In this document: piece by piece, positions 475 through 17,013 of the stretch
How positions within the stretch are numbered: position 1 is the first letter of the stretch
How the letters are laid out: every line of letters begins with the position of its first letter
NCBI GenBank assembly: GCA_027061995.1
Contig: JAMOUT010000074.1
Coordinates: 1 to 32,732 of the forward strand
Source of the DNA: Candidatus Aminicenantota bacterium
GTDB lineage: Bacteria > Acidobacteriota > Aminicenantia > JAMOAD01
Direction of reading: 5' to 3'
Length of the DNA stretch: 32,732 nucleotides
Notes under the pieces: generated by a model
Told to the model about the DNA's origin: nothing
Seen by the model: only the letters and a program-made list of their open reading frames with translations
Database searches by the model: none
Translations under genes and position numbers: made by a program

Positions 475-1281
475 TTATATATTTAAAAATATTAAATCAC
501 TAAAAGGGATTATGAAAACTTTTGTTCCGTTTATCTTATATTCTTCTTTTTCTCCCGATATTCCGACAATATATGCTTTTTTAGGATCATATTTCTTAAT
601 AAAACTTTTTAATGATCGTTCAATTCTTATTTTTGACAACTCTTTATATTTTACTTTAATCGGCACAACTTTAAACCCCTTATCAATAACAAAATCAACC
701 TCCGAAAATAATATATTCTTTAAAAAAATCAATAATTTTTTCTTTTTCTATTTTAATAAAATCATTCAATTTTTTCTCATATTTATATTCTGTTTTATAA
801 TTAATAAATTCTTTAAATGAAATAGTTGGCAACTCAAATATTCTCTTTCTACCGATAAGAGATTCTTTAATCTTTTCCTTCAATTCCAAGCTACCCGAAC
901 CTGAAACAATGAATTTATACTTTTTATTCATATCGTATAAACCTTTTAAAAACAATCCTGCATCAGACAACCTTTGAATTTCATCAATAAAAACAAACCC
1001 CTTATTATCTCCTATCTCTAAATTTATTTTTTTTATAAAGTATGTTGATCCTTAAAATATGAATTATCTTGATAAATGTCCAAGTTTAAAAAAACGGTTT
1101 TATAATCTTGTTTAATAAGATAATCTCTTAAAAGATTCATTAATGTGGTTTTACCTGATTGACGAGGACCAACAATTAAAGATATCTCTTTTTTAAATAA
1201 ATGCGCTTTTAAATCTTTAAATAAAGCTCTTTCTATCATGAATAAATTATATACCCGAGAATTATCAAAGTTAACTTTCAT
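475..1281 (-). pseudogene. Broken AAA ATPase / DUF4143 family gene
   Basis: Three minus-strand fragments read in order as one family. The first (1281 down to 1033) has Walker A GPRQSGKTT. The second contains the Walker B text FVFIDEIQRL and then FIVSGSGSLELK, GRKRIFELP and YIIFGG. The third gives EVDFVIDKGFKVVPIKVK, the C-terminal nuclease-like strand of DUF4143. Fragments 1 and 2 are separated by a one-base shift in a 7-base A/T run at 1028-1034. Fragments 2 and 3 join in the wrong frame at about 695-732, and most of the DUF4143 domain that normally lies between FGG and EVDFV is missing. About 270 codons remain against roughly 400 in intact members. The likely original start is the ATG at 1239 (MIERAL), typical for the family. 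The deletion makes loss of function secure; the A-run shift alone could be a sequencing error. Confidence 0.85.
1246..1274 (-). promoter_or_regulatory. Candidate sigma-70 promoter of the AAA/DUF4143 pseudogene
   Basis: On the minus strand TTAACT (1274-1269), a 17-nt spacer and TATAAT (1251-1246) precede the ATG at 1239 by 6 nt. There is no Shine-Dalgarno sequence, so the transcript would begin at or next to the start codon. The -35 is only a 4/6 match. Confidence 0.4.
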
Positions 1282-2659: not shown

Positions 2660-3561
2660 AACCGATTTTAATGATTCTATTATTCCCTTTAAAATTAATC
2701 AATTATATGAGAAGAAGATTTGAAAAAAAAGCGGAATTCAGGGGTAAATTTATAATTTCAGTAGGAAACATAAGTTTCGGAGGAAGCGGGAAAACCCCCT
2801 TAGTAATAGAAATATCCCGATTTTTTGAAAATGAAGGGATTAAAACCGCTGTTTTTTTAAGAGGCTACAAAGGGAAGATGGAAAAAATCGGAGGGAAGGT
2901 TGTTCTCTCGGAAGGTGCACAGGTATGGGGAGATGAAGCTATTCTCATCAAAAGAAATATTGTTTCTCCGGTTTTTGTCGGAAAAGACAGGGTTAAACAG
3001 ATTGAAACAATTGCTGATTCTGATACAAGAGTATTAATCCTTGATGACGGGTTCCAGTATTTTAAAGTAAAAAAGGATTTGGAGATAATTATTTATGATT
3101 TTGAAAACCCCTCCCCTCTTGCAAGAGATTTCAAATCAGAGCTTAATAAGGCTGATATCATTTTTAACAGAGCACCCCTTAAAATAAAAAATCATGAACA
3201 ATATGAAATTATAATGGATGGAATATATGATTCCAATGATAATAAAACCGATGATTATTTTAATAAAGAGTTTATAGCTTTTTCCGGAATAGGAAATCCC
3301 GAATCTTTTAAAAACACTTTATCAAAAAATAATATATCATATAAAAAATTTTTCACATACCCCGACCATTATTTTTACAAACAAGATGATATTGATACTA
3401 TTACATCTTATAATTTGCCATTAATAACCACGGAAAAAGATTTTGTGAAATTGAGAGAATTTAATATAAAGGATTTGTATTATTTGAAAATTAGGGTAAA
3501 ATTAAAAGATAAGTTTAAAAAGGAGCTTATAAAAAAGTTTGAAGAAAAAATCGCATTATAA
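2650..3561 (+). CDS. lpxK: Tetraacyldisaccharide 4'-kinase
   Basis: Phosphorylates the 4' position of the lipid A disaccharide precursor to give lipid IVA, at the inner face of the inner membrane. The protein (303 residues) has a short hydrophobic N-terminal segment (about residues 4-20). A P-loop, GNISFGGSGKTP, lies at about 39-50, and the family motif LDDGFQY at 131-137. Both are hallmarks of LpxK. It is a little shorter than many homologues (about 320-350), with no obvious missing motif. It overlaps waaA upstream by 10 nt and the acyltransferase gene downstream by 23 nt. It therefore sits in a tight lipid A operon with the enzymes acting just after it in the pathway. Confidence 0.95.
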   Translation: MPLKPILMILLFPLKLINYMRRRFEKKAEFRGKFIISVGNISFGGSGKTPLVIEISRFFENEGIKTAVFLRGYKGKMEKIGGKVVLSEGAQVWGDEAILIKRNIVSPVFVGKDRVKQIETIADSDTRVLILDDGFQYFKVKKDLEIIIYDFENPSPLARDFKSELNKADIIFNRAPLKIKNHEQYEIIMDGIYDSNDNKTDDYFNKEFIAFSGIGNPESFKNTLSKNNISYKKFFTYPDHYFYKQDDIDTITSYNLPLITTEKDFVKLREFNIKDLYYLKIRVKLKDKFKKELIKKFEEKIAL

Positions 3562-4441
3562 AACAGAATATTTTCTTTTTTATTTTCTGAAAATAATCAT
3601 AGGATTTTCTCCGGATTTTCTACTCCCTTTTTACTATAAAACACTCTCCAAAGCATTATATCTTGCAGGTAAAAGATACCAAAGTATAATATTAAAAAAT
3701 CTTGATATAGCTTTTCCCGATAAAACGGGAGAAGAGAAGGAAAGACTTGTCCGAGAATCTTTCTCTTATCTTGCAAGGCTTATGATTGATCTGATTAAAT
3801 TTCCGACAATAGAAAAAATTGAAAAAAGGATTGAAAAAGGGGATATAAGTTCTTTGGAAAACAGTATTAAAGAGGGAAAAGGGGTTATCTTAATATCGGG
3901 GCACTTCGGTAATTGGGAATCGGGGCTTTTATGGTTGGGAAAATTCGTATCTCCCATTAATATCATAACAAGGAGAATGGATAACCCTTATATAGAAGAG
4001 CTTTTAAAAAAAATCAGAGAGCAAACGGGAAACAAAATCATTCATAAAGATAATAGAGCCGCTCTTAAAATATTAAAACTGTTGAGACACAATGAAAGTG
4101 TGGGGCTCATGGTTGACTTGAATCAGCAAAAAAAAGAGGGGATATTCATAGATTTTTTCTCAAAAAAAGCTTCAACAAGTCCGGCTGCAGCCATTTTTCA
4201 TCTTAAAACAGGAGCACCGATAATTTTCGCTTTTTGCATCCCAAAGGGGAAAGGATATAAATTTTATACCCTTCCACCTATAACACACACCCCTACCGGA
4301 GATAAAGAAAAAGATATAAAAGTCATAACCCGAAAAATAAATAAAACCCTTGAAGAGGAGATAAAAAGACATCCTGAATCATACTTTTGGTTTCACAAAA
4401 GATGGAAAGAAAGACCCGAAGGGGAAGAGAGTATTTATTGA
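3539..4441 (+). CDS. lpxL: Lipid A late acyltransferase, LpxL/HtrB type
   Basis: A membrane-associated acyltransferase of the LpxL/LpxM family that transfers a secondary acyl chain from acyl-ACP to the Kdo-lipid A precursor. The catalytic HX4E motif is GHFGNWE at 121-127 (His122, Glu127). IITRRMDNPYIEELL, VGLMVDLNQ and a PAAAIFHLKTGAPI stretch are typical of the family. At 300 residues the length is normal. The frame opens with TTG at 3539 inside lpxK; AGGAG at 3521-3525 is a rather distant ribosome binding site and there is no early in-frame ATG, so the exact start is uncertain. It is the last gene of the waaA-lpxK-lpxL operon. Which acyl position it serves is not decidable here, as only one family member is in the window. 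Confidence 0.9.
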   Translation: MKKKSHYKTEYFLFYFLKIIIGFSPDFLLPFYYKTLSKALYLAGKRYQSIILKNLDIAFPDKTGEEKERLVRESFSYLARLMIDLIKFPTIEKIEKRIEKGDISSLENSIKEGKGVILISGHFGNWESGLLWLGKFVSPINIITRRMDNPYIEELLKKIREQTGNKIIHKDNRAALKILKLLRHNESVGLMVDLNQQKKEGIFIDFFSKKASTSPAAAIFHLKTGAPIIFAFCIPKGKGYKFYTLPPITHTPTGDKEKDIKVITRKINKTLEEEIKRHPESYFWFHKRWKERPEGEESIY

Positions 4442-4466
4442 TTATTTTTTTATTTTGGTTTTTTAT

Positions 4467-4496
4467 TTGACAAAATAGTCCTGATTGTTTTATCAT
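4467..4496 (+). promoter_or_regulatory. Sigma-70 promoter of the EBP gene
   Basis: A perfect TTGACA (4467-4472), 18 nt, then TATCAT (4491-4496). The EBP start codon at 4527 has a GGGGGA ribosome binding site (4514-4520 region). The regulator therefore appears to be made from an ordinary housekeeping promoter, independent of sigma-54. Confidence 0.6.
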
Positions 4497-4526
4497 ATTA
4501 AATATTTAATTATCGGGGGATAAACA

Positions 4527-6023
4527 ATGCTTGAGAAATTAAGAGAGAGTATTGAAAAAAGATTGATGGAAAAAGGGGTATCTCTTATAATGCTGTTTGA
4601 TGGAAACGGTCATATAAAATGGCATAGCGGAAGAAAGATACGGGGAAATGGTGTCAGAAAGGGCAATGGGTTTTCAAAAACAGCTTGCGTGAAAGCATTG
4701 GATAATAAAGCTATGGTTGAATTTAAGGATGATGTTATAAAACTCTCGGGAGACGGTTTGTCCGAGACCGCAATAAGCATAAAAATAAAAAGTATTATCA
4801 TCCTCCCTATTGATAAAGGGAATTATTTTTATGTTGATTCCGCAAAAAAAGAGTTTTCCCGTGAGGATATGATTTCGATAAGGGAGAGTTGCTATTATTT
4901 AAAAGAGTGTATAAGAGAGAGTGAAAAATATTATGAAGAGATATTATCGGAGATTAAAATTATTGATGATATCTCGAAGAAAAAAATATTAAGATACGGA
5001 GCCGAAGCGAAAACACCGATACTTTTGACGGGAGAAACCGGAGTTGGTAAGGGATATATATCAAAGATAATCCATGAGGTATCACAGAGAGGGGGAAAAT
5101 ATGTAAATATAAATGCCGCCGCAATGCCCGAGACACTATTGGAGAGTGAACTGTTCGGATACAAGAAGGGAGCATTTACGGGGGCAAAAGTTGATAAGGC
5201 CGGTTTGATAGAGGAAGCTGAAGGGGGAACACTGTTTTTGGATGAGATAGGGGATATGGGGTTTGATAGTCAGACAAAGATATTGAAAGTTATAGAAGAG
5301 GGCAAATATATGAGATTGGGGGATAGCAAGGAGAGGAGTTGTGATGTGCGGTTTGTGTTTTCGACAAACAGGGATTTGATAAAACTTGTCGAGGAAAAAA
5401 GGTTCAGGAAGGATCTGTATTACAGAATATCCGAGTTTTGGATAGACATTCCTCCCCTGAGAAAAAGGAGAGATATGATAGATAAATTGATAGAGGGGTA
5501 TGAAGAGTTGTTGAATGGAAAAAGATTTACAAAGAAAGCAATGGAGTTTATAAAAATTTATGATTGGAGGGGAAATATAAGAGAGTTAAAGAGCATGATG
5601 AAGAGAGTGGGGGTTATGACCGAAGGAGATAAGATAGGCATAAAGGAGGTTATTGAGAGTGTTGAAAATCATTTGAACAAGGAGGAGATAAGAGAGTTAA
5701 TAGAAAGAATGGGACTTAAAGATAATTGTTGTGATGTTTATGAAAGAGTTAAATTTACCGTAACCGGTGAAAATAAAACCAACAAGAATCCGAAGGTAAA
5801 AGCAATTATAGATGAGATAGAAAAAGGGAAGAGCTTTTGGGAAGCGGTAAAAAAACCATTCATGAGAAGGGAACTTAACCGCGAAGAGGTAAAAGAGGTT
5901 ATAGATTTCGCTCTCTTGAAAACAGATACAAAGAGATATAAAGAGTGTTTGCAATATTTGAATATAAGCAATGATGAACATAAAAAATTTTTGGATTTTC
6001 TAAAAGATTATAGGATAAAATAA
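4527..6023 (+). CDS. Sigma-54-dependent transcriptional activator (bacterial enhancer-binding protein)
   Basis: An AAA+ ATPase that remodels sigma-54 RNA polymerase at -24/-12 promoters (498 residues). Residues 1-130 form a GAF-like sensory region without a phosphorylatable receiver. The AAA+ core has Walker A GETGVGKG at 169-176, the sigma-54 contact loop GAFTGA at 215-220, Walker B LFLDEIG at 236-242 and the arginine-finger region FRKDLYYR at 293-300. The C-terminus (about 405-498) is not a classic Fis helix-turn-helix. It reads [13 protein letters not shown]...[17 protein letters not shown]...HKKFLDFL, a tail I recall from other EBPs of environmental bacteria and presume binds DNA. Its gene ends one base before three 20-bp palindromes and a sigma-54 promoter that faces the cassette at 6268, making it the obvious candidate activator. 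The signal it senses is unknown. Confidence 0.93.
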
Positions 6024-6043
6024 ATTCGGAATTATTTCCGAAT
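6024..6043. promoter_or_regulatory. Palindromic upstream activating site, copy 1
   Basis: ATTCGGAATTATTTCCGAAT: an 8-bp inverted repeat (ATTCGGAA/TTCCGAAT) around 4 nt, starting immediately after the EBP stop codon. It shares the pattern ATTCGGARTAT...CCGAAY with two further copies. Its centre lies about 195 bp upstream of the predicted sigma-54 start site, a usual enhancer distance. It could also act as a weak transcription-stop hairpin for the EBP gene. Confidence 0.6.
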
Positions 6044-6063
6044 TATTCGGAGTATTTACCGAA
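6044..6063. promoter_or_regulatory. Palindromic upstream activating site, copy 2
   Basis: ATTCGGAGTATTTACCGAAC, directly abutting copy 1, so the two centres are 20 bp apart, about two helical turns. The arms TTCGG/CCGAA are intact; the inner positions are weaker than in copies 1 and 3. Confidence 0.55.
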
Positions 6064-6110
6064 CAACCAACCCTTTAAATAAAACGATAAACTCTCTCGC
6101 AGATAATATC

Positions 6111-6130
6111 ATTCGGAATATACTCCGAAT
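6111..6130. promoter_or_regulatory. Palindromic upstream activating site, copy 3
   Basis: ATTCGGAATATACTCCGAAT, arms ATTCGGA/TCCGAAT. Its centre is about 108 bp upstream of the predicted start site at 6229. Together with copies 1 and 2 this is the expected layout for a multimeric enhancer-binding protein. Confidence 0.6.
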
Positions 6131-6202
6131 AGAAACAAGTTCCCCCGCAGCCTAAAAAACAAGAATCTTTTAATTTCAACGGTTTTTATCCGCTCTCCTC
6201 TG

Positions 6203-6218
6203 CGGCATGGTTTTTGCT
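6203..6218 (+). promoter_or_regulatory. Sigma-54 (-24/-12) promoter of the peptide cassette
   Basis: CGGCATGGTTTTTGCT. The invariant GG (6204-6205) and GC (6216-6217) are exactly 10 nt apart, as in TGGCACG-N4-TTGC. CA after GG and TT before GC also match. Transcription should start near 6229. It is the only promoter seen before the 6268-14674 gene run. Confidence 0.75.
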
Positions 6219-6256
6219 TAAATGTTTTATGAACCTGCAGGTTTAAAAAACATTTA
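6219..6256. promoter_or_regulatory. Long palindrome over the cassette start site
   Basis: TAAATGTTTT (6219-6228) is a perfect inverted repeat of AAAACATTTA (6247-6256). Between them AACCTGCAGGTT (6232-6243) is itself a perfect palindrome; only a short mismatch (ATG versus TAA) separates the two. The left arm lies just upstream of the predicted +1 and the right arm abuts the AGGAGGTG ribosome binding site. It could be an operator, or an RNA hairpin if transcription starts earlier than predicted. Confidence 0.5.
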
Positions 6257-6267
6257 GGAGGTGTTTT

Positions 6268-6444
6268 ATGTGGGTCGAAATGATTCCTGTTGCAAGTTCC
6301 GTATTAACACCTGAATCACTTAACAAACTTAGTGTTTCAGCAGTAACCGGCATCGGGCTGATTATTGCAGCTACTGCCACGGGTACTGTTGTAGCAAAGG
6401 GTCTTGACATTGCCCTGACAAAGGTAAAGAAGCCTAAAGGCTAA
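6268..6444 (+). CDS. 58-residue hydrophobic peptide, candidate RiPP precursor
   Basis: A short frame preceded by an excellent AGGAGGTG (6256-6263). The N-terminal third is polar (MWVEMIPVASSVLTPESLNK, residues 1-20). Residues 25-43 form an uninterrupted Ala/Val/Ile/Thr/Gly segment (AVTGIGLIIAATATGTVVA). The tail (44-58) carries five lysines and ends KVKKPKG. It has no cysteine and no typical signal peptide. It is the first gene after the sigma-54 promoter and lies 19 nt before a B12-type radical SAM gene, the usual place for a modified-peptide precursor. The segment beginning TGIG resembles, from memory, the start of the polytheonamide core (TGIGVVVAVV), whose residues are C-methylated by B12 radical SAM enzymes. 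This resemblance may be convergent. A small membrane peptide unrelated to RiPPs remains possible. Confidence 0.75.
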   Translation: MWVEMIPVASSVLTPESLNKLSVSAVTGIGLIIAATATGTVVAKGLDIALTKVKKPKG

Positions 6445-6463
6445 AAAAAAGAAGGAGGAAATT

Positions 6464-7900
6464 ATGGCGTGGATTGTATTGATTCAGTTAAACTCTACAA
6501 CAATGGTTTCTGAAGCATCTACAACCCGTTATAAATTTCCTCCTTTGGGCCTTCTTTATATATCCTCGGTGTTAAGACTGCATGATTATGATGTAGAAAT
6601 AATTGATCTTTTATCCTTTGGGAAAAATTATTCTTTTTTCAAAAAAAAGCTTAAACAATTAGAAAAAAAATATAAAACTCCTCCTCAAATTGTAGGGTTT
6701 AGTGTTTTTACTGAAAATGCAACGGATGCTTTCTATTTTACCGATTATGTGAGAAATGTTTTCCCAAAAACCTTAATAGTTTTTGGTGGTGCTCATGCAA
6801 AGGCTGAATATGAAAGTATTTTACTTACTAAAAAGGTGGATATTGTTGACATGGCGGAAGGAGAAGGGAATATTATTGAGATATGTAAATATAAAGAGGG
6901 TTTGCTTCCGGTGGAAAAAATAAGAGGAATAGCATATTTAAATAATAATAAAGTTATTGTTAATGAAAATTATTACATAGAAGATATTAATATATTACCG
7001 TTTCCAGATTTTTTTAATATCCGGTATTCTTCTTATAGGGATGTTGGGATTATAGTAACATCAAGAGGATGCCCGGGGGAGTGTATCTTTTGTGCGTCAA
7101 GAGCTTTTTCGGGAAGTAAATACAGGGCATACAGTGCCGAAAGAATCTTTTCGGAAATGATTTTTTTAAATGAAAATTTCGGAGTGATTGATTTTGGCTT
7201 TATGGACGATACTTTTACCGCTTTAAAAAAGAGAACACTGAAATTCACGGAATTACTATTGAATGACAAGGATAAACATTTTACTTATTCTATTAAAAGC
7301 AGAGTGGATTTACTAAATATTCAAACTCTTAATTGTTTAAAAGACACCAACTGCGATTCCATTCATATCGGAGTTGAGAGTGCTGATGACGAAGTGCTGA
7401 AAAAGATGAAAAAAAGGACTTCTTTAGAGAAAAATTTGTGGGCTATTGAAAAAATATCCGAGTATGGAATGACTCCGGAATGCTCGTTTATTATCGGAAA
7501 CCCTGACGATACAAAAGAGACAATTTATAAAACAATAATCTTTGTTTACTTACTTAATAAACATTATAAACCTTATAAACCGGCAACTTTCGGGGTTTCC
7601 ACCCCTTATCCTGGAACCGAGCTTGCTAAAAAATCTTCCGCTTTGGGGATGAAAATAAAAATATGTGATTGGAGGAGATATGATTGCACACAACCTATTT
7701 TTGAAACGAATAATTTTACAATAGATTTTTTAAGAGAAATCATGTGGAAATATGAGACAGAGAAAGATGACTTTATTAATAATTTATTAAAGGATGATGA
7801 AATTAGATTGTTTTATTCTTATTTGGATAAAAGAATTAAAATGTCCGCAAGGAAATATTATGATAACAGAGGAGAAAGTAATGCAACCATTGAAGCTTAA
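6464..7900 (+). CDS. B12-binding-type radical SAM enzyme, putative peptide-modifying
   Basis: 478 residues. The N-terminal third has the layout of a cobalamin-binding domain of BchE/methyltransferase-like radical SAM proteins: PPLGLLYISSVLRLHDYDVE, GFSVFTENATDA, then IVFGGAHAKAEYE and DMAEGEG. The DxHxxG lower-ligand motif is not seen, as in many members of this class. The radical SAM core follows with CPGECIFC (Cys203, Cys207, Cys210; CX3CX2C), MDDTFT, IGVESADDEVLKKM and IIGNPDDTKETI. GAAGGAGG precedes the ATG at the normal distance. The downstream SPASM gene overlaps its last 20 nt. Family members methylate or rearrange unactivated carbons. Given the hydrophobic peptide gene 19 nt upstream, C-methylation of that peptide is the best guess, but the chemistry is inferred. 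Confidence 0.88.
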   Translation: MAWIVLIQLNSTTMVSEASTTRYKFPPLGLLYISSVLRLHDYDVEIIDLLSFGKNYSFFKKKLKQLEKKYKTPPQIVGFSVFTENATDAFYFTDYVRNVFPKTLIVFGGAHAKAEYESILLTKKVDIVDMAEGEGNIIEICKYKEGLLPVEKIRGIAYLNNNKVIVNENYYIEDINILPFPDFFNIRYSSYRDVGIIVTSRGCPGECIFCASRAFSGSKYRAYSAERIFSEMIFLNENFGVIDFGFMDDTFTALKKRTLKFTELLLNDKDKHFTYSIKSRVDLLNIQTLNCLKDTNCDSIHIGVESADDEVLKKMKKRTSLEKNLWAIEKISEYGMTPECSFIIGNPDDTKETIYKTIIFVYLLNKHYKPYKPATFGVSTPYPGTELAKKSSALGMKIKICDWRRYDCTQPIFETNNFTIDFLREIMWKYETEKDDFINNLLKDDEIRLFYSYLDKRIKMSARKYYDNRGESNATIEA

Positions 7901-9188
7901 AAAGTCCGTAAAAATAAAAAAACTTAAAAACGGAGAATTACTCTTTTTTGATAAAGAGACGGGCTTGTGGGTAAAAACATCTATCAGTTTTAGTAATTTA
8001 GGTAAAAAATTACAAAAAGGGATGAACAGCAAAGATTTAGAACTCCTTATGAAAACCGAGTATAGAAAAGATCAAGCAGAAGAGGTATCTTTAGTCATAC
8101 AAATGCTGAAAGATAACGAACTGTTTGAGAATGAAAACAGGAATAGTCGGCTACTTGAAATTAATAAACTTGGAATTGTTACTCTATTAATTTCAACAGA
8201 AACAGATGCGAAGAAATTAGTTTCATTTATTTATAAATATTTCAAAGAGAGAACAATTTCAATGATATTCCACAACAAGAAAAAAAATAAAACAAAAACA
8301 AGAATTATTAACACACTTAAATATCTTAAAACAAATTTATCTATAAATACGGACAATATAACATATAGAGATTATTGGGAAATCATTGATTATCAAACCA
8401 TAAAAAAACTTGTTGATTCGGGAATTAATAATATACAAATTAACTTTTCTCATTTCAGCGGAAGCAAAGAAGAACTTGATTATAAGATTAATTTCTTTAA
8501 AAGCTTGATTAGTAAAGGGGTTAATATTCAACTCAGATATGATATAGTTAAATACGATATGATTAAAAGCAAGCAGGAATCATTACTTGTCCCCGTGATG
8601 GGGATTCCTAATACTTCTTATTATTTTGTCTTAGAAAGTATCTTAGACAATGAAATAAAAAGGAAAGACTTATATTTTAAAAAATATTTTTCTTTAGTTT
8701 CAGAGTTTTATCGTAATGCTAATGCGGACGGATTAAAAACTCTTGACCTTTTTCCCGAAAATTCATTAGGAGTTAATTTTTTTCTTCCTATTAAAAGAAA
8801 TAAATGCGGAGCAGGGGTTACCTTTTTTTATATAGACGAATACAATGATGTATATTCTTGTATAGCTGATAAGAACAAAATCGGCAACCTTCAAAAAGGG
8901 ATAAATATTGATTCACCTTATCACGATAGAAAAGAATGTTCTTCTTGTATGTTCTTACTTCTATGCGGGGGTATTTGTCAAGGTTTAATTAAGGATAAAC
9001 ATTTTGATAGAATATGTCGATTTAATAAAAAATATATTCAACAATTCATATCTAATATTAATTTGGATGTGTTGAAAGAAATAATGGAAAATGACAATAA
9101 GGAAAATTATGAAATGAATAATGAAAAGAAAAAAGACTTGGAAAAAAGATTACAGGAGAGAATTTTATGTCCTATAGGGATATTTTAA
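7881..9188 (+). CDS. PqqD-like/SPASM protein lacking the radical SAM cysteine motif
   Basis: 435 residues from the ATG at 7881, chosen because AGAGGAG lies 6 nt upstream; the open frame before it overlaps the previous gene. Residues about 8-85 look like a PqqD/RRE peptide-binding domain (SVKIKKLKNGELLFFDKETG, then a predicted winged-helix region). The C-terminus has a complete seven-cysteine SPASM signature: Cys309, Cys327, Cys353, Cys356, Cys362, Cys366 and Cys379, with CX2CX5CX3C in the middle. Residues 1-308 contain no cysteine at all, so the CX3CX2C motif that would bind the SAM-cleaving cluster is absent; the usual spot reads LGIVTLLISTETDAKK. It is therefore probably a non-catalytic partner carrying two auxiliary Fe-S clusters, perhaps delivering peptide or electrons to the B12 enzyme. 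The frame is intact, so this is not a recent disruption. Confidence 0.85.
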   Translation: MQPLKLKKSVKIKKLKNGELLFFDKETGLWVKTSISFSNLGKKLQKGMNSKDLELLMKTEYRKDQAEEVSLVIQMLKDNELFENENRNSRLLEINKLGIVTLLISTETDAKKLVSFIYKYFKERTISMIFHNKKKNKTKTRIINTLKYLKTNLSINTDNITYRDYWEIIDYQTIKKLVDSGINNIQINFSHFSGSKEELDYKINFFKSLISKGVNIQLRYDIVKYDMIKSKQESLLVPVMGIPNTSYYFVLESILDNEIKRKDLYFKKYFSLVSEFYRNANADGLKTLDLFPENSLGVNFFLPIKRNKCGAGVTFFYIDEYNDVYSCIADKNKIGNLQKGINIDSPYHDRKECSSCMFLLLCGGICQGLIKDKHFDRICRFNKKYIQQFISNINLDVLKEIMENDNKENYEMNNEKKKDLEKRLQERILCPIGIF

Positions 9189-9436
9189 CTATTACTCCTC
9201 TATCTTTACTTTGGTATAGGGATAATGAAGGAGATATTATTGTTCAACATTTCTATACAAAAAGAAAAATAGTGTTAGAAGAAGAACGGAACCGATTGTT
9301 TTGGAGCCTGATATCAGAGTATTCCGACATGGATATAATTAGCGAAGAATTTCTCAAATCTTTCACGGAAGAAGATTTGGAAAATACAATTAAATTATTT
9401 TATAAACTTGGTATTATTAAAATCTATAAAAAATGA
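9167..9436 (+). CDS. Small PqqD-like (RRE-like) protein
   Basis: 89 residues starting inside the end of the SPASM gene (22-nt overlap) with GGAGAG upstream of the ATG. The pattern resembles PqqD-type recognition elements: short strands (SLLWYRDNEGDIIVQHF, KRKIVLEE), a helix, an SEEFLKSFTEEDLENTI helix pair, and a closing LGIIKIYKK. It is similar in outline to the N-terminus of the preceding protein. If so, the cassette encodes two peptide-binding modules. The assignment is by fold-like pattern only, with no invariant residues to confirm it; a generic winged-helix protein is an alternative. Confidence 0.6.
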   Translation: MSYRDILTITPLSLLWYRDNEGDIIVQHFYTKRKIVLEEERNRLFWSLISEYSDMDIISEEFLKSFTEEDLENTIKLFYKLGIIKIYKK

Positions 9437-9443
9437 GGTGTAA

Positions 9444-9683
9444 ATGAAAAAGAAGAAGGAAAAAATTAAAATTAAAGAAGATGTCAAATTCGGAGATTAT
9501 ATACTAATAACAACAAAATCAAATATTGCATTCTCAGGTAAAGTTGTTCACAAGGGCAAATGCGAATGTTTAAACGACAAAGATAATAATAAAATCATTA
9601 TAAAACCAAGTGAAAAATCGGATGTTTGGTTGGTTTTTGATGAAAAAGCCATTAAAGATCTGCAAGTCATAGTTCCTTGTTAA
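9444..9683 (+). CDS. 79-residue protein of unknown function
   Basis: It starts 7 nt after the previous stop with GAGGTG upstream. The N-terminus is very basic (MKKKKEKIKIKED). The rest is predicted mostly beta (FGDYILITTKSNIAFSGKVV, KIIIKP, DVWLVFDE) and could be a small beta-barrel. It contains a KCEC pair near residues 40-43 and ends in VPC. There is no signal peptide. I do not recognise the family. Position between the modification genes and the export block suggests an accessory cytoplasmic role; a second substrate peptide is conceivable but has no supporting motif. Confidence 0.7.
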   Translation: MKKKKEKIKIKEDVKFGDYILITTKSNIAFSGKVVHKGKCECLNDKDNNKIIIKPSEKSDVWLVFDEKAIKDLQVIVPC

Positions 9684-9714
9684 ATTTAAGTTTATTATAG
9701 AGACGGAGTTTATT

Positions 9715-10368
9715 ATGATTAGAAAACGAGTTTTTGTATTTTTTTTATCTTGTTTGTTTTTATCATGTATCTTATTCGGAAACAATCACGAGCTTATTAA
9801 ACAATTGTGTGAAAAAGGGAAAGAGATGGATCAAAAGCTGCGAAATTATGTTAAAATTATCAATAGTAGTATTTATACATACGATAGAAAAGGGGAACTT
9901 TTAAAAACCGAAAAAAAACATTATGAAATTATTTGGAATGGAAAAAAATGGGTTGATAAAAACAATGAAAAAGATAAAACAAAAAGCAAAGATCTTGAAC
10001 CTTTTGAATCCGGATACCAAATCTTTTTTAATTACTCAATACAAGAAAAAAATGATGAATATGTAATAGTTGTAACTTTAAAAGAGAAATTTAAAAAAGC
10101 TCATGCGGAGATAGGAACATATATTGTTTCAAAAAAAACTGGTTATTTTAAGGAGGAGGACACATTCTTTAACAGAGTTCCTTATTCCATGTTTATTAAA
10201 AAATTCGAAATGAAAACAATTTACGGCGAAGTGGAAGACGGGATAATAGCTCCGGTAAGAATGGAGAATCTCGTTGAATCAAAGGTGTTTTTCGGCGTGG
10301 GAAGAAAAGTTACCATAATAACCGAATATTCGTATAAAAAAAGAAAGGATAAATATGAAAAACTTTGA
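9715..10368 (+). CDS. Secreted protein, paralogue A
   Basis: 217 residues with a signal peptide (MIRKR, then a hydrophobic run to about residue 21, likely cut near FG/NN; an alternative lipobox cysteine at 18 is possible). The mature part is mixed alpha/beta: HELIKQLCEKGKEMDQKL, then NYVKIINSSIYTYDRKGELL, HYEIIWNGKKW, EIGTYIVSKKTGYFKEE and VFFGVGRKVTIITEYSYKK. These alternating strands recall LolA-like periplasmic lipid/lipoprotein carriers, but the match is only in outline. It is clearly homologous over its whole length to the protein at 13474-14112. ACGGAG precedes the ATG. It lies between the modification genes and the ABC block; a role in binding or shielding the peptide outside the cytoplasm is a guess. 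Confidence 0.8.
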   Translation: MIRKRVFVFFLSCLFLSCILFGNNHELIKQLCEKGKEMDQKLRNYVKIINSSIYTYDRKGELLKTEKKHYEIIWNGKKWVDKNNEKDKTKSKDLEPFESGYQIFFNYSIQEKNDEYVIVVTLKEKFKKAHAEIGTYIVSKKTGYFKEEDTFFNRVPYSMFIKKFEMKTIYGEVEDGIIAPVRMENLVESKVFFGVGRKVTIITEYSYKKRKDKYEKL

Positions 10369-10432
10369 TGATAAAACTGATATATTGGCTTATACTTGTT
10401 TATTAGTCTTATTATTTTATACGGAGGTATAA
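10355..10432 (+). CDS. Possible 25-residue peptide (weak)
   Basis: An ATG at 10355, preceded by AAAGGAT at a suitable distance, opens a frame (MKNFDDKTDILAYTCLLVLL, ending FYTEV) that stops at 10430-10432, one nt before the next gene's ATG. It overlaps the end of paralogue A by 14 nt. The middle is hydrophobic. It might be a coupling leader for the beta-propeller gene or simply chance. No homology is claimed. Confidence 0.25.
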   Translation: MKNFDDKTDILAYTCLLVLLFYTEV

Positions 10433-10433
10433 T

Positions 10434-11414
10434 ATGAGAAAAAAAACGCTTTTTATTCTACTTGGTTTATTAATGGTTATAAGTTTAAGTTTTACGAAGG
10501 GAATAAATAAGATTGAACTTAATGACCTTTATATAAGTTCCGGAAGATTTATTGTCTCGGGAAACAGTATTATTACTATTGATAATAAGGATTTTAATAT
10601 CAAAGTCTTCGGACAGGATGGAAAACTTATCAAAAAAAAGGATATAAAGGGTAATGGCCCCGGAGAGGTATCAACACTCGGAACATTTATATTTCCCGAC
10701 GGAAAAGGCTTTATTCTTCTTGAAAGTCAAAAAAGAAAGTGGATAAAATACAACAAAGATCTTATCTTTTTGAAAGAGGGAAAATTGGATTCACCCGTTA
10801 CTTTTTTAAAAAAGTGTAAATACGGATACATTGCGGGTATGGCGAGTTTTATGACAAAATATTACAGGAAGATTTTCCTTTATTCAGAAAAATTAATAAA
10901 TAAAAAACTATTGTTTACAGATTATGGAGAAAATTTTGAAAAAAAACTAAATACTAACGAACTGTATATTCTCCTTGATTCTACCGATGAGAAAATTGCA
11001 TTTTTCGGAGGAAATAAGCCTATTGTTAATATAATAGATTATTCGGGAAAAGTTTTGAAAAAATTAAATCTGAAGAAATATATAAAACCGTCCGAATATA
11101 GCAAAGAGGAGTTATCAGGAATTTCAAAAAATCTCCCGAGTGAAGTCAGAAAGATGATGGAATTTAAGAAATATCCTCCTATAACTCAATTATTATTTAT
11201 ATCAAAGGATAAAATTTTAATAGTTAGCGGAGAAAAGAAAAAACTGAAAGGGTGGAAAAGTTTTACATATGATACCGGAAACAATAAATTGAAAGAGATT
11301 AAACCTTTGCCTTTAGGGGATATTTTCATTTACAAAAACAGTAATTTATATATAATGGGAGAAGGGGAGAATGCCCCTTATCTTATGAAAATTAATATAA
11401 AAGAGGTATTATGA
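10434..11414 (+). CDS. Exported 6-bladed beta-propeller protein
   Basis: 326 residues with a signal peptide (MRKKTLFILLGLLMVISLSF). The repeats read like NHL/6-bladed propellers: IITIDNKDFNIKVFGQDGKL, then the diagnostic KGNGPGEV (the GxGPGE turn of this family), IFPDGKGFILLE, and later IVNIIDYSGKVLKKL and LYIMGEGENAPYL. Such propellers are exported, often as lipoproteins, and bind ligands or partners; no lipobox cysteine is visible here. GGAGG lies just upstream. The stop overlaps the ABC ATPase start in an ATGA arrangement, so it is probably made in step with the transporter. Its ligand is unknown; the cassette peptide is a reasonable candidate. Confidence 0.8.
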   Translation: MRKKTLFILLGLLMVISLSFTKGINKIELNDLYISSGRFIVSGNSIITIDNKDFNIKVFGQDGKLIKKKDIKGNGPGEVSTLGTFIFPDGKGFILLESQKRKWIKYNKDLIFLKEGKLDSPVTFLKKCKYGYIAGMASFMTKYYRKIFLYSEKLINKKLLFTDYGENFEKKLNTNELYILLDSTDEKIAFFGGNKPIVNIIDYSGKVLKKLNLKKYIKPSEYSKEELSGISKNLPSEVRKMMEFKKYPPITQLLFISKDKILIVSGEKKKLKGWKSFTYDTGNNKLKEIKPLPLGDIFIYKNSNLYIMGEGENAPYLMKINIKEVL

Positions 11415-12274
11415 AAGATATAATAAGATTTGAAAATGTGGTGAAAAACTATGGTAAAGTCAAAGCTCTAACCGGTATAAGTTTTTCGGTTACTGAAGGT
11501 AGAATTTTCGGAATTTTCGGTCCTAATGGAGCCGGCAAGACAACCGCAATAAAAATAATTCTCGGTATCCTAAAACATGATTCCGGAAATGTGGTAATAG
11601 GGACAGATAATTTATCATATCTTCCGGAAGAGCTAAGTCTTGATCAGAGTGAAAGAGTAAAGACAATGATAAACTATATAGCAAAATTAAAAGGGATAAA
11701 GAGTAAAATAAGAGATAAAGAACTTGATAAATGGGAAAAAATTCTTAAAATAAAAGAGTTTTACAAAAGGAAAATATATGAACTTTCAAAAGGGCAAAAA
11801 AAGAGAGTAATGTTTTTATTAGCTCTTCTCGGGAATCCGGATATTATAGCGCTCGACGAACCTTTTACCGGACTTGATGCCGAAGCTGCCGAAAGTTTGA
11901 AGAACCTTGTAACAGGGTTAAAGAGTGAAGGAAAAACAATAATATTTTCAACACACATACTTGAAATAGCGGAAAACATTTGCGAGGATGTTCTTATCCT
12001 TAAAAACGGAGAGGTCAAGGAATACGGAGAAGTTGAGAGTCTGAAAGAAAAATACTCTCAAAAAGGATGGATAGTTAAACTGAAGGAGGGATCAATCAAA
12101 GAGAATAGTGTAAAAGATATGATTTTTACGAAAGATGGAAAAAGTGTGGAGTTCTCGGATAATACCCCCTTAGACGAGATTATTAAAAAAATCAGCCCCG
12201 CAAATATTGTGGAAATTAAAAGAAAGTATCCGAATTTCAAAGAGCTTTATTTTAAATCGGTAGGTGAGGAATGA
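11411..12274 (+). CDS. ABC transporter ATP-binding protein
   Basis: 287 residues, single nucleotide-binding domain of the ABC-2/NatA-like type. Walker A is GPNGAGKTT at 37-45, the signature loop LSKGQ at 125-129 (Lys instead of the usual Gly at the third position), Walker B IIALDEP at 145-151 and the switch histidine in STHILE (His182). A C-terminal extension of about 80 residues follows. It overlaps the propeller gene by 4 nt and the permease gene by 4 nt (both ATGA), so the three are translated together. With the adjacent permease it would form a homodimeric exporter, or an immunity transporter that removes the peptide from the membrane; direction and substrate are inferred. Confidence 0.93.
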   Translation: MKDIIRFENVVKNYGKVKALTGISFSVTEGRIFGIFGPNGAGKTTAIKIILGILKHDSGNVVIGTDNLSYLPEELSLDQSERVKTMINYIAKLKGIKSKIRDKELDKWEKILKIKEFYKRKIYELSKGQKKRVMFLLALLGNPDIIALDEPFTGLDAEAAESLKNLVTGLKSEGKTIIFSTHILEIAENICEDVLILKNGEVKEYGEVESLKEKYSQKGWIVKLKEGSIKENSVKDMIFTKDGKSVEFSDNTPLDEIIKKISPANIVEIKRKYPNFKELYFKSVGEE

Positions 12275-13422
12275 TAACAGTATTTTTATATGAATTAAGA
12301 AGGACTTTGAGAAGTCCTTGGTTTTATATAACCTGTCTTTTACTTCCGGCGATTTTATTTCTGAGCGTGAAACTGCCGGAGTTTATAGTTGGTCAGATTA
12401 ACAGTGAATCACAAGGGGTGAAAATTATAATTGATAATAAGACTGAATTTGGAGAGTTGATAAAAAAGGAGATTGAAAATGATCCTTTCATAGATAATTG
12501 GGAAATAGCCTTTAAATCAGAGGATACCGGTGAGAGTGATAAAACGATTATTCATCTTATTGAGAATAATGATCAAATCATAGTAAGGATGAAGAAAAGG
12601 AATGAAGTTTATGAATCCGTTATAAAAAGAGCAATAGAAAACAGTTATTTTATTAAAACACTATCAAGCAAAGGGATGAGCAGAGATGAAATTATGCGGT
12701 TGAAACAAGGAGTTAATATAAGATTTTTAACGGAAAAAGAAAAGATAAGGAAAGGGGCGAGTAAATATATGGTTTTAATGTTTCTTGTTGTGTTTTATAT
12801 CTCTATAATGGGATACGGAGAACTTCTCGCTCATAGGGTTATGACAGACAAAGAAACCAATTTTATAAACATACTTTTATTATATAAAAAACCCGAACAA
12901 ATATTCACGGGGAAATTATTAGCCGTTGTCTCTGGATATCTGATCTATCTTATAATAAGTTTCGGATTCACCTTGTTGACTTTAAAATTTATTATGGGCA
13001 AAGAAGCCGGCACTTTTGTTAAGCTGTTTTTAAACACAGGGATAAAAACGGAATTATTATTATTTGTTTTTATTTTGTTCTTTTTCTCTTTTATAATGTA
13101 TTCCTCTTTTTATCTTCTTTCGGGGGCAATAGCCAATAATGAGGATGATTTAAAAGGACATAGCACGATTATTAATTTTGTCCTTATAGCTTCTCTAATC
13201 ATAGGTTCTATATTTGTGAATACTCCTGACATGGGGATTGAACGACTATTGTTTTACATACCTCCGGTAACCCCTTTTCTATTATTAAAGGATATTTTAT
13301 TTGAAACCATCTCGAATTTTAATATTGTTTTGGGCTTCTCTATAATTATGATTTTTACGCTAATCTTTATAAAACTTGCTTCATTAAAATATAATGTTAG
13401 TTCACTGTATAAAAGAGGATAA
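12271..13422 (+). CDS. ABC-2 type transporter permease
   Basis: 383 residues. One N-terminal membrane helix (about 17-38) is followed by an extracytoplasmic domain of about 125 residues (LVGQINSESQGVKIIIDNKT region and onward). A C-terminal bundle of five or so helices then follows (from about 168 on: YMVLMFLVVFYISIMGYGEL, LLAVVSGYLIYLIISFGF, ELLLFVFILFFFSFIMYSSF and more). This is the NatB/ABC2-3 layout. The HRVMTDKETNFINILLLYKK stretch matches the cytoplasmic coupling region of this family. It partners the ATPase immediately upstream. No peptidase domain is fused, so any leader removal must be done elsewhere. Confidence 0.9.
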   Translation: MITVFLYELRRTLRSPWFYITCLLLPAILFLSVKLPEFIVGQINSESQGVKIIIDNKTEFGELIKKEIENDPFIDNWEIAFKSEDTGESDKTIIHLIENNDQIIVRMKKRNEVYESVIKRAIENSYFIKTLSSKGMSRDEIMRLKQGVNIRFLTEKEKIRKGASKYMVLMFLVVFYISIMGYGELLAHRVMTDKETNFINILLLYKKPEQIFTGKLLAVVSGYLIYLIISFGFTLLTLKFIMGKEAGTFVKLFLNTGIKTELLLFVFILFFFSFIMYSSFYLLSGAIANNEDDLKGHSTIINFVLIASLIIGSIFVNTPDMGIERLLFYIPPVTPFLLLKDILFETISNFNIVLGFSIIMIFTLIFIKLASLKYNVSSLYKRG

Positions 13423-13473
13423 AGACAGAAACAAAAAACAGTTATTTTTTGTTTATACAAAAGGAGGTTTGAT

Positions 13474-14112
13474 TTGAAAAGAAAGAAAATTGTTTTTTTT
13501 ATTGTAATGATTGTTTTGGCAATATCTATGTTTTCAGGCAATCTTGATATTATTAATCAATTGTGTGAAAAAGCGAAGGAGACGGAAAAAAAACTACAAA
13601 ATTATGTTAAAATAATAAACAGCGACATTTATACCTATGATACAAAGGGAAAACTTTTAACTCATGAAAAAAAACATTATGAGATTGTTTGGGATGGCGA
13701 AAAATGGGTTGAGAAAGGGATAATAAAAGATGATAAAAATCAAGAGAAGAGTTTCAATCCGTTCAATTATAAAGATATATCATATTTTAATTATTCGATA
13801 AAAGATAAAGGGGATGAATACATAATAGTTGTAACCTTAAAAGACAAATTTAAGGATATCAAAGCGGAGATAGGAACATATATTGTTTCAAAAAAAACAG
13901 GTTATTTTAAAGAAGAAAACACCACCTTAAGCAAAATGCCTTCTCAATTCATAGAAACATTTAAAATAAGAACATCATACGGAGAAATAGAGAAAGGGCT
14001 TATCGTTCCCGTTAATATGAAAAATATTATAAATTCGAAAGTTATGTTCGGTGTGGGAAGAAAAGTTGTGATTATAACGAGATACTCCTATAAAAAGAGA
14101 AAATATGAATAA
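13474..14112 (+). CDS. Secreted protein, paralogue B
   Basis: 212 residues starting with TTG at 13474, six nt after a strong AAGGAGG (13461-13467). A signal peptide (MKRKKIVFFIVMIVLAISMF) ends near SG/NL. The mature protein aligns end to end with paralogue A: QLCEKAKETEKKLQNYVKII, HYEIVWDGEKW, EIGTYIVSKKTGYFKEE and MFGVGRKVVIITRYSYKKRK, more than half identical by eye. The pair is separated by the propeller and ABC genes, so a duplication was followed by insertion, or the block was assembled around them. Function is unknown; the fold may be LolA-like. A 51-bp gap before it holds an AT-only inverted repeat (AAACAAAAAA/TTTTTTGTTT, 13430-13455). Confidence 0.8.
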   Translation: MKRKKIVFFIVMIVLAISMFSGNLDIINQLCEKAKETEKKLQNYVKIINSDIYTYDTKGKLLTHEKKHYEIVWDGEKWVEKGIIKDDKNQEKSFNPFNYKDISYFNYSIKDKGDEYIIVVTLKDKFKDIKAEIGTYIVSKKTGYFKEENTTLSKMPSQFIETFKIRTSYGEIEKGLIVPVNMKNIINSKVMFGVGRKVVIITRYSYKKRKYE

Positions 14113-14131
14113 ATTTAGAGTGGGGTGATAA

Positions 14132-14674
14132 ATGAAACGAAAATCAGTTGTCTTGATATTATTACCTTTTCTATTTATTTTATCATGTAAAAGCAAACCT
14201 ATTATGCCGGAAAGTATAAAGATATTGAAAGGGTTCAATTATTCGGAATTAATGGATTCAATTAAATTAGGAAAGTTTGAAAATGATAAAAAGATAGATA
14301 ATAAAGAATTTTCCGAGATTGTAAAAAACGAATTTAAGCGAGACGGGTTTATCTTTAAAACCGAAATGACCGATTTTATTTTAAATGGCAAATTATTAAG
14401 ATTTAAGGAAAGCGAAAACACGGATTATCTTTATACCGATGTAAACGGGGTCAGTATCCCGATAGAGGATACAAATACTTCCTATGAAATCTCTTTTATA
14501 TTATTTATAGTAAATAAAGCGACAAATAAGCAGATATGGTCATGTAAAGTTTCGGAAAAGAGAGAAACTGATTACCCTGAATCTCTGATTGCAAAGATGG
14601 TTAAAGCTTGTCTTAAAACCATGAAAACTGAAAACAATGATTATACGGAAAAAGGAAATACAAATCGAGATTAA
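14132..14674 (+). CDS. Small lipoprotein of unknown function
   Basis: 180 residues. A lipoprotein signal peptide ends in FILSC, with lipidated Cys19. The mature part begins KSKPIMPESIKILKGFNYSE and contains a predicted beta-sandwich or DUF-like region with YEISFILFIVNKATNKQIWS and VSEKRETDYPE, similar in style to envelope lipoproteins that resist or bind small ligands. GGGGTG lies upstream of the ATG, 19 nt after paralogue B. It is the last gene of the cassette, the place where immunity genes often sit; that role is a guess. Confidence 0.75.
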   Translation: MKRKSVVLILLPFLFILSCKSKPIMPESIKILKGFNYSELMDSIKLGKFENDKKIDNKEFSEIVKNEFKRDGFIFKTEMTDFILNGKLLRFKESENTDYLYTDVNGVSIPIEDTNTSYEISFILFIVNKATNKQIWSCKVSEKRETDYPESLIAKMVKACLKTMKTENNDYTEKGNTNRD

Positions 14675-14814: not shown

Positions 14815-17013
14815 TCAGTTGCTAAGATTTTTCTTAAAAAATTCAAACATGCTCTCAAAAAGATGTATCCTTGTTTTTGTTCCTTTTAAACTATGACCTT
14901 TATTAGGATAAATAAGAAGATCGAATTTTATATTATTATCCTCTAATTTTTTAATAAAATTAATGGAATGCACAGGGTGAACATTATCATCTCTAAGTCC
15001 GAAGATAAGAAATAACCGATTTTTTAACCTGTTTGCATAATTAAGAGGAGAACTTTTTTTATACCCCTCTCCGTTTTCGGAAGGGATATCAAGGTATCTT
15101 TCCGTATAATGGGTATCATAAAAATGCCAATCTGTTACAGGGGCAAGAGCGACACCGGCTTTAAAAACAGAATGAGCATTGATAAGGGAATAGATTGTCA
15201 TAAAACCGCCATAACTTCCACCCCATATACCAATTCTGTTTTTATCCACAAACCCTTGTTTAATAAGATATCTAACTCCGGCGAGTTGATCCTGAAGCTC
15301 AGTCTTGCCAAGCTCTTTATAAATATATTCCTCGAATCTTTTTCCTCTGTTAAAAGTTCCTCTATTATCAAGAGTATAAACAAGAAAACCGTTTTGTGCC
15401 AAGAATTGATGGAAAAGGTAAAAATCTCCTCCCCACTTGTTTGCTAAATGTTGGCTATGAGGGCCACCGTAAACATACACGATTAAAGGATATTTTTTCG
15501 AAGGGTTAAAATCGGGAGGTTTTATAAGGGAAGAAAATAAAGTTTCCCCACCGTTTTTAATTTTAATTATCTCGGGTTCTACAAGATTATATTTTTTATA
15601 AAGATTTTCATCCGAACTTAATATCAATTTTGAAATTTTACCATTTATTTTCTTATAATAAATTTTGTAAGGGAATTTATACGATGTTATTTTTTCAATA
15701 TAAAATCTATTTGAACGGGAAAAGATAACTTCCTGTTGCCCCGAATCTTTGGTAATTCTGCTCATGATTTTTTTACGATAATCCATCCCGTAAAGATAAT
15801 TATCAAGAGGATTATCTTTGTTAGAATAAAAATATAGAACGAATCTTTTTTCATAATGCTTAGAAATAGCAGTAACCTGCCAATCCCCTTTGGTAAGTTG
15901 TTTTATGAGTTTTCCGTTAAAATCATAAAGATAGATATGTCTGTAACCATCCCTTTCTGACAACCAAAAAAATCTTTCTCTGTGTTTAAAGAACACCGGA
16001 TTTCCCGTGATATTCACCCAAGTATCTGATTTTTCCTCAAGTATAAGTTTTATCCCTTTTGTATCAATGTTATAAGAAAAAAGTTTAAGCGTTTTTTGCC
16101 TTCTGTCCTGAACCTGATAAAACAGAAGATTATCCCTTGCCCAAGATACTCTCGGAATATAAACCTCTTTATATTGATCGGGAAATATATTTATTGTTTT
16201 TCCTGTTTTTATATCAACAATCTTTAATATCACTTTTGCATTGTGTGTCCCCGCCGAAGGATAATTCTCTTGATAAAGTTCGGGAAATCCCTTATCGGAA
16301 TGGTATGTCGGAAGAGGATATTTATTAACTTCGGATTCATCCGAGCTTATGTAGGCTATATATCTGCTGTCAGGCGACCACCAATAGGAAACAGTCCTTC
16401 CCATCTCTTCCATGGCAACAAATTCTCCCGTCCCGTTTTTGATATCTTTCCCCCCTTTTTTAGTGAGCCTTTTATCACTCTGAGAAGCTAAATCATAAAT
16501 ATATAGATCATCCTTTTTAATGTATGAGATAAATTTATTGTCAGGGGAAAATTCAGGATTAATAACGGGTGTATCTTTAACATATATTTTATCAAGAGTT
16601 TTATTAATCAAATCAAAGATAAATATTTTTCCGTAAAAAGGGAGTAAGAGTCTTTTTTTATCATTAGAAAGTTGATAGGAGATTACCCCTTTTGTTTTTT
16701 CCCTTTTTCTTTCTCTAATCATTCTTTGTTGCGGTGTTAATTTTACGGGATAATCTTTTAAAAGAGTTTCTCCTGAAATAAGAAGGGTTTCTTCAAATTT
16801 TCTTAAATCATAAGTATATACGCTTGATATTTTTGATGATTCATCGGTTTTAATATAGATTATTTTTTTTGAATTTAACCATGCTATGGAAGAAGGGGCG
16901 GAATATTTTAATATTTTCCCCGAAAAAATTTTTTTTATGGTTAATTTTTCACCATTCATATAAAAACCCGAACTCATAAATAATCCTAAGAACAGTATAA
17001 AGCCTTTTTTCAT
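14815..17013 (-). CDS. Dipeptidyl peptidase IV-like serine peptidase (family S9)
   Basis: 732 residues, exported (signal peptide MKKGFILFLGLFMSSGFYM). An N-terminal beta-propeller (to about 480) contains EFVAMEEMGRTVSYWWSPDS with the Glu-Glu pair that DPP-IV enzymes use to hold the substrate amino terminus. The C-terminal alpha/beta-hydrolase has GGSYGG with nucleophile Ser600, acid DDNVH (Asp675/676) and base NKGHS (His707), so the triad is complete. It removes N-terminal dipeptides, usually with Pro or Ala second. A GAGGAGA ribosome binding site precedes the ATG and the gene follows the epimerase by 12 nt. It converges on the peptide cassette with only a 140-bp gap and no shared promoter, so a link to peptide maturation is not implied. 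Confidence 0.93.
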   Translation of the reverse strand: MKKGFILFLGLFMSSGFYMNGEKLTIKKIFSGKILKYSAPSSIAWLNSKKIIYIKTDESSKISSVYTYDLRKFEETLLISGETLLKDYPVKLTPQQRMIRERKREKTKGVISYQLSNDKKRLLLPFYGKIFIFDLINKTLDKIYVKDTPVINPEFSPDNKFISYIKKDDLYIYDLASQSDKRLTKKGGKDIKNGTGEFVAMEEMGRTVSYWWSPDSRYIAYISSDESEVNKYPLPTYHSDKGFPELYQENYPSAGTHNAKVILKIVDIKTGKTINIFPDQYKEVYIPRVSWARDNLLFYQVQDRRQKTLKLFSYNIDTKGIKLILEEKSDTWVNITGNPVFFKHRERFFWLSERDGYRHIYLYDFNGKLIKQLTKGDWQVTAISKHYEKRFVLYFYSNKDNPLDNYLYGMDYRKKIMSRITKDSGQQEVIFSRSNRFYIEKITSYKFPYKIYYKKINGKISKLILSSDENLYKKYNLVEPEIIKIKNGGETLFSSLIKPPDFNPSKKYPLIVYVYGGPHSQHLANKWGGDFYLFHQFLAQNGFLVYTLDNRGTFNRGKRFEEYIYKELGKTELQDQLAGVRYLIKQGFVDKNRIGIWGGSYGGFMTIYSLINAHSVFKAGVALAPVTDWHFYDTHYTERYLDIPSENGEGYKKSSPLNYANRLKNRLFLIFGLRDDNVHPVHSINFIKKLEDNNIKFDLLIYPNKGHSLKGTKTRIHLFESMFEFFKKNLSN

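Follow-up and report, generated by a model that had tools for sequence, protein, structure and literature searches.

Can a protein with the build of a radical S-adenosylmethionine (SAM) maturase, but without the site that holds SAM, still take part in peptide modification? This question is raised by a locus of a Candidatus Aminicenantota bacterium (assembly GCA_027061995.1, a draft genome of 2.36 Mb), in which the gene of a sigma-54 activator is followed by a co-directional series of eleven genes at positions 6268-14674 of contig JAMOUT010000074.1. This contig, 32,732 nucleotides long, is the window analyzed here. The first three of these genes encode a 58-residue peptide, a B12-binding radical-SAM enzyme and a protein that has kept the cysteines of a SPASM domain and lost the radical-SAM motif. 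In our judgment the locus is probably a biosynthetic cassette for a ribosomally synthesized and post-translationally modified peptide (RiPP), flanked on one side by a sigma-54 activator that acts in cis and on the other by an older module of envelope and ABC (ATP-binding cassette) genes. The electron source of radical-SAM enzymes and the role of the SPASM auxiliary clusters are open questions, and in a natural protein with SPASM ligands and no SAM site the two roles are set apart and become open to test.

All eleven open reading frames are intact and lie on the + strand, and from the peptide gene on they are spaced by 7-65 bp or overlap; the listing of open reading frames thus confirmed the genes, the order, the single strand and the short gaps named in a preliminary description of this DNA. 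The RiPP-like system proposed there gained support from the Firmicutes relatives of the B12 enzyme, which lie beside RiPP recognition elements (RREs) and peptides, from the structure model of an 89-residue protein as an RRE, and from a peptide cassette that follows an orthologous activator in a sister genome. No paper describing such a class was found in the open-licence literature.

Modifying proteins and their Firmicutes relatives

The first gene (6268-6444), which has a strong Shine-Dalgarno sequence (AGGAGG), encodes the putative precursor. The 58-residue peptide consists of a polar N-terminal part with the sequence PESLNKL and a hydrophobic C-terminal part rich in Gly, Ala, Val and Ile; it contains no Cys and one hydrophobic stretch of transmembrane length. 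The motif P[DE]S[VLI]..L is common to this peptide and those of Petralouisia muris, but, having been defined post hoc, carries little weight. Class-wide matches to the peptide (E 0.01-0.05) turned out to be only stretches within larger frames or frames with stops, and were taken as chance.

The B12-binding radical-SAM enzyme (6464-7900) was recognized by its Pfam domains (B12-binding, 1.5e-12; Radical_SAM, 8e-23), its intact motif CPGECIFC and its relatives. Distant members of this superfamily occur in 60 of 60 related genomes sampled, and therefore presence alone is uninformative. One scan of the genomes of 84,980 species, for which an alignment of three sequences served as the query, gave as best relatives among the matches listed the enzymes of Clostridiaceae bacterium M8S5 (36% identity), Caloranaerobacter azorensis, P. 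muris and other Firmicutes. In a tree of 75 rows, enzymes whose genes adjoin that of a PqqD-type protein cluster together (2 changes, compared with 12.3 in shuffles), and the window enzyme groups with those of M8S5, P. muris and [Clostridium] polysaccharolyticum (Shimodaira-Hasegawa-like approximate likelihood ratio test, 85-88).

The M8S5 locus encodes two peptides of 55-68 residues with Gly/Ala/Val-rich tails, a PqqD-like protein and the B12 enzyme, accompanied by a SPASM enzyme that bears an RRE, an S8 peptidase, another B12 enzyme and ABC genes. The P. muris locus (3029-7907) looks like an undescribed RiPP locus, with two tandem Cys-rich precursor-like peptides of 68-69 residues, ABC genes, a PqqD protein (PF05402, 5.7e-8), the B12 enzyme, a relative of the 79-residue protein discussed below and a SPASM enzyme. 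C. polysaccharolyticum combines two peptides of 42 residues with an ABC-2 pair, the B12 enzyme and a further relative of the 79-residue protein, and the loci of other relatives carry YcaO, ThiF or C39 genes. Homologous loci that regularly lack the peptide gene had been put forward as grounds for rejecting the proposal; the loci described here have short peptides, so that it withstands this check. The window locus also draws attention to Firmicutes B12 radical-SAM enzymes that form a group and are encoded near RREs and hydrophobic peptides; we found no description of this group, and no paper on the three loci of M8S5, P. muris and C. polysaccharolyticum, in the open-licence literature. Two further gene neighborhoods were noted: a ThiF protein, an ABC pair, PqqD, a B12 radical-SAM enzyme and YcaO in Lachnoclostridium sp. 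UBA1434 (locus L102, 6007-13388), and a PqqD-like protein and a B12 radical-SAM enzyme beside an importer-like ABC trio of substrate-binding protein, permease and ATPase (locus L080, G045:C22, 9952-14357).

The third gene (7881-9188) is best started at 7881, behind GAGGAG, and not at the mechanical start 7794. Seven of the eight Cys of its product occupy SPASM ligand positions and are invariant in the multiple alignment, and the eighth lies near the C-terminus. The NCBIfam SPASM model scores just short of its cutoff (25.8 compared with 27 bits), an hhalign comparison with intact enzymes from the related loci matches the SPASM part (E 3.6e-5), and the N-terminal stretch ELLFFDKETGLWVKTS aligns with KYLFVDFESTSWFRTN in the RRE region from P. 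muris. The motif CxxxCxxC is absent from all six frames of 7881-9188, and a frameshift behind its loss was ruled out, as no frame encodes it. Its position is taken by TETDAKKLV and that of GGEP by NKKK, in a barrel alignment that is uncertain. Outside its own genome, searches found no relative of the protein among viral contigs, plasmids, the class and 396 genomes of the phylum, in which two matches of 38-45 residues cover the SPASM motif only.

That the radical-SAM cysteines are gone from this SPASM protein had been stated correctly in the preliminary description, which took the trait as part of what sets the class apart; in the closest counterparts, however, the radical-SAM motifs are intact. 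We therefore read 7881-9188 as a pseudo-radical-SAM partner, and the form without these cysteines seems to be derived locally. Because the SPASM cysteines are kept and the radical-SAM motif is lost, the protein should be able to hold two auxiliary clusters, possibly also the leader, and should not cleave SAM.

A stand-alone RRE is predicted for the 89-residue product of the next gene (9167-9436), of PqqD-type winged-helix form. The AlphaFold2 model obtained with nine sequences (predicted local distance difference test, pLDDT, 92.3; predicted template modeling score 0.83) consists of beta strands, three helices and a last strand. In a Foldseek comparison with the Protein Data Bank, the complex of TbiB1 with its leader peptide provided the top five matches (template modeling score, TM, 0.66-0.74; probability 0.99-1.00; E 0.007-0.12, none below 0.001). 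Lower matches include ThcOx, TbtB, a heterocyclase, TruD and a sactipeptide enzyme, and we take the matched parts of such proteins to be RREs. The leader-binding RRE by which RiPP loci are recognized would be supplied by this predicted fold. The protein has no Pfam match, and hhalign to a PqqD set is weak (E 0.02, probability 2.4%). Both this protein and the SPASM protein had been called PqqD-like; alignment and the 89-residue model bear this out, whereas Pfam detection does not.

The cassette ends with a 79-residue protein (9444-9683) of a tiny new family with the motif KPSxxS. Blast and profile searches found relatives in P. muris and C. polysaccharolyticum only, each encoded directly 3' of the B12 gene, and no other member among 397 genomes sampled from the family of P. 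muris. This rare gene, shared with P. muris and C. polysaccharolyticum, connects the cassette to both of their loci without recourse to the B12 tree.

Sigma-54 control and a proposed mechanism

The activator gene (4527-6023, + strand) encodes an enhancer-binding protein with a distinctive N-terminal domain and an AAA+ ATPase (Pfam Sigma54_activat, 1.1e-57); Pfam detected no helix-turn-helix at its C-terminus. Between this gene and the peptide gene lie three palindromes of the form TTCGGA-N6-TCCGAA (6025-6042; 6046-6063, with one mismatch; 6112-6129), which are candidate activator sites, and a -24/-12 promoter, CGGCATGGTTTTTGCT, at 6203-6218 on the + strand, which agrees with the consensus in 15 of 16 positions. 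These sites are specific: the perfect palindrome occurs three times in the genome, twice at this locus, and if up to one mismatch is allowed there are 25 copies compared with 1 for the reversed control. The activator is likely to bind the TTCGGA palindromes. A sigma-54-dependent operon needs an AAA+ activator, operators upstream and a -24/-12 promoter; all three are in place and support the sigma-54 control assigned to the run earlier. The third perfect copy lies at C52:38554, possibly at a further target.

Orthologs of the activator (55-68% identity) were found in two sister genomes, here G003 and G004. On contig C135 of G003 (1884-6874) the orthologous activator is followed by an identical palindrome, and 3' of it by a 41-residue Cys-rich peptide (GGGCSACGACGACG), an AlbA-like RRE/radical-SAM/SPASM enzyme with intact motif, a C39-like protease and a propeller; the peptide gene occupies the same slot relative to the activator as in the window. 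A second activator copy of G003, which is the closest ortholog, is located at a contig end. G004 has other palindromes (CAACA..TGTTG), behind which come a secreted peptide that contains Cys and, at a greater distance, a propeller-like gene. Contig C135 also carries a perfect sigma-54 site at 7224, with further propellers and Cys-rich secreted peptides behind it.

The N-terminal domain of the activator is present in 22 of 141 genomes of the class. Of the 22 related activator genes that are followed by 500 bp of sequence or more, 20 have a -24/-12 site within that distance downstream. Some related activators precede peptides, SPASM enzymes or propellers (in G012, G029 and G031), and many precede other genes; an activator dedicated to RiPPs alone was therefore rejected. 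The front end of activator, operators and peptide is thus a general, reusable device of the class that drives interchangeable cassettes. One such locus (G012:C5), with a related activator, a 61-residue peptide with an RGG leader end, a SPASM enzyme and a propeller, is itself RiPP-like.

We propose that the activator, acting on the TTCGGA palindromes, would fire the -24/-12 promoter and so lead to the 58-residue precursor and the proteins that modify it. The leader part near PESLNKL might be held by the stand-alone RRE, by the RRE-like N-terminus of the SPASM protein, or by both, and the B12 enzyme would then modify the Cys-free aliphatic C-terminal part. RiPP B12 radical-SAM enzymes usually yield C-methylation, and this would most likely be the reaction here. 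The SPASM protein would serve the B12 enzyme as a leader-binding scaffold and iron-sulphur electron relay that does not cleave SAM. Export of the product, or protection against it, is probably the task of the ABC pair, and the genes for the propeller, the secreted proteins and the lipoprotein may act in the envelope. The gene content, the lost radical-SAM motif beside the kept SPASM cysteines, the sigma-54 sites and the homology to RRE-linked B12 enzymes are seen in the sequences, and the RRE fold is a model prediction; that the peptide is the substrate, that it is methylated and exported, and that the SPASM protein acts as a relay, we infer. A more specific and rather tentative idea, to which we give the smaller share of belief, is that of a two-component modifier, in which a former maturase, with its RRE and two auxiliary clusters, has become the leader-binding and electron-delivering subunit of a separate B12 radical-SAM enzyme and, together with the 79-residue family, yields an aliphatic Cys-free peptide.

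The downstream block and competing explanations

The remaining six genes encode the secreted protein A (9715-10368), a secreted protein like a 6-bladed beta-propeller (10434-11414; PF17170, 6.5e-5, 0.2 bits below the cutoff), an ABC transporter ATPase (11411-12274; Pfam 1.8e-24), an ABC-2-like permease without Pfam match that adjoins the ATPase gene (12271-13422), the secreted protein B (13474-14112) and a DUF4136-like lipoprotein (14132-14674; lipobox ILSC; PF13590, 1.2e-5, below the cutoff). The two secreted proteins are paralogs (60% identity). G004, a genome of the same family, has propeller, ATPase, permease, secreted protein and lipoprotein in conserved order at 53-69% identity (propeller 59%, ATPase 69%, permease 63%, lipoprotein 53%; its secreted protein 55% to A and 56% to B). 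The G004 genome has no match for the SPASM protein, the 58-residue peptide or the 79-residue protein, and its contig stops 276 bp upstream of the block. As the block is syntenic there without the RiPP enzymes, it most likely was resident as a separate module before the cassette 6268-9683 was added to it; its inclusion in a new RiPP class, as first suggested, found no support. The low G+C content of 8001-10000 (0.27) is compatible with a different origin and is not strong evidence.

The same synteny favors the best of the alternatives, namely that a peptide cassette (6268-9683) merely adjoins an unrelated operon (9715-14674), an envelope ABC/propeller module that serves a task of its own; the different taxonomic affinity of the two parts points the same way. 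The single strand and close spacing throughout, the ABC-2-type pairs that also lie beside Firmicutes B12 enzymes, and the propellers that follow peptides in several activator-led loci speak against it, and we hold this explanation to be possible, yet on the unlikely side. Less probable is a decaying SPASM protein, left over from a second radical-SAM maturase that was lost, with the B12 enzyme and the stand-alone RRE sufficient by themselves. CxxxCxxC and GGEP are lost, as a relic would have it, and the barrel aligns poorly with intact relatives; an intact reading frame overlapping both neighbors, seven SPASM cysteines and an RRE-like N-terminus would, however, be unexpected in a decaying gene. 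Slightly weaker still is the view that the 58-residue product is an ordinary small membrane protein or otherwise no substrate and that the B12 enzyme acts on a lipid or an envelope protein, for although the transmembrane-length stretch, the lack of Cys, the kinship with BchE, HpnJ and lipid enzymes (with similar NCBIfam scores) and the envelope-directed block would fit, the run includes a protein of the peptide-binding RRE class, the relatives of the enzyme adjoin short peptides and other RiPP enzymes, and G003 has a Cys-rich peptide and an active SPASM enzyme in the equivalent slot behind its activator.

Several results weigh against the RiPP cassette that we prefer. Homology of the 58-residue peptide to Firmicutes peptides is mostly not above shuffled controls and marginal at best: the best similarity, a 22-residue ungapped match to one of the eight Firmicutes peptides tried, from C. 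polysaccharolyticum, was reached by 7 of 2000 shuffles, and the score of a global alignment to one P. muris peptide by 10 of 2000. The B12 enzyme forms a long branch, so that its exact position in the tree is unsure, with support at this branch below the star level of the tree program and identities to the Firmicutes relatives of 30-36% only. The alignment behind the 89-residue model consisted of suspected RREs, a possible bias to that fold, and the AlphaFold2 model of the SPASM protein (five sequences, pLDDT 38.6) was not used. This partner was found in its own genome only, so that the gene set as a unit is a single case, and its function as scaffold and electron relay, most likely as we consider it, is the weakest link. 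Finally, Pfam and NCBIfam scans found no leader protease in 4527-14674, in keeping with what had been noted before; a leader protease in the cluster is not obligatory for RiPPs.

Around the run, a gene for an S9/DPP-IV-type peptidase (14815-17013, - strand) converges on the cluster and is a possible, unproven leader processor. The genes 5' of the activator, judged by eye from their sequences, appear to be waaA, lpxK and an lpxL-like acyltransferase gene, and an AAA ATPase-like gene at 475-1281 (- strand) is broken into several short frames, which suggests a pseudogene or an assembly error.

Comparison with known systems

Like TIGR03975 (rSAM_ocin_1) and ApyD (NF050148), the window enzyme combines B12-binding and radical-SAM domains in a RiPP context, but it scores far under the curated cutoffs of both (94.9 compared with 281.85 bits, and 111.8 compared with 750). 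The 89-residue protein resembles the TbiB1-type RRE of lasso peptide systems in fold (TM 0.74), but is only 13% identical to it, and the window has neither a lasso cyclase nor a B2 protease. The haloarchaeal pseudo-SAM/SPASM family TIGR04347, judged by its name, has likewise kept the SPASM domain and lost the catalytic motif; its model gave no match to the window protein at E 0.1, and the setting differs.

With AlbA, CteB and PapB, maturases of sactipeptides and ranthipeptides, the SPASM protein shares an RRE-like N-terminus and a seven-Cys SPASM domain. Unlike in these systems, the window has no SPASM enzyme with an intact CxxxCxxC and no Cys in the precursor core, and thioether chemistry by the SPASM protein is therefore excluded. 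For PapB, intermolecular electron transfer has been supported, likely via an auxiliary cluster (PMC10470005).

The Firmicutes loci of M8S5, P. muris and C. polysaccharolyticum share with the window a B12 enzyme of the same group, short hydrophobic peptides and ABC genes, to which a PqqD-type RRE and an adjacent SPASM protein are added in the first two and a 79-residue-type protein in the last two. They differ in that their SPASM enzymes have an intact CxxxCxxC, that the P. muris peptides contain Cys, and that neither a sigma-54 activator nor a propeller block was seen in them. What is new in the window is the pseudo-enzyme partner, the small protein family and the regulator context, and the locus also directs attention to a class-wide sigma-54 device for interchangeable peptide cassettes.

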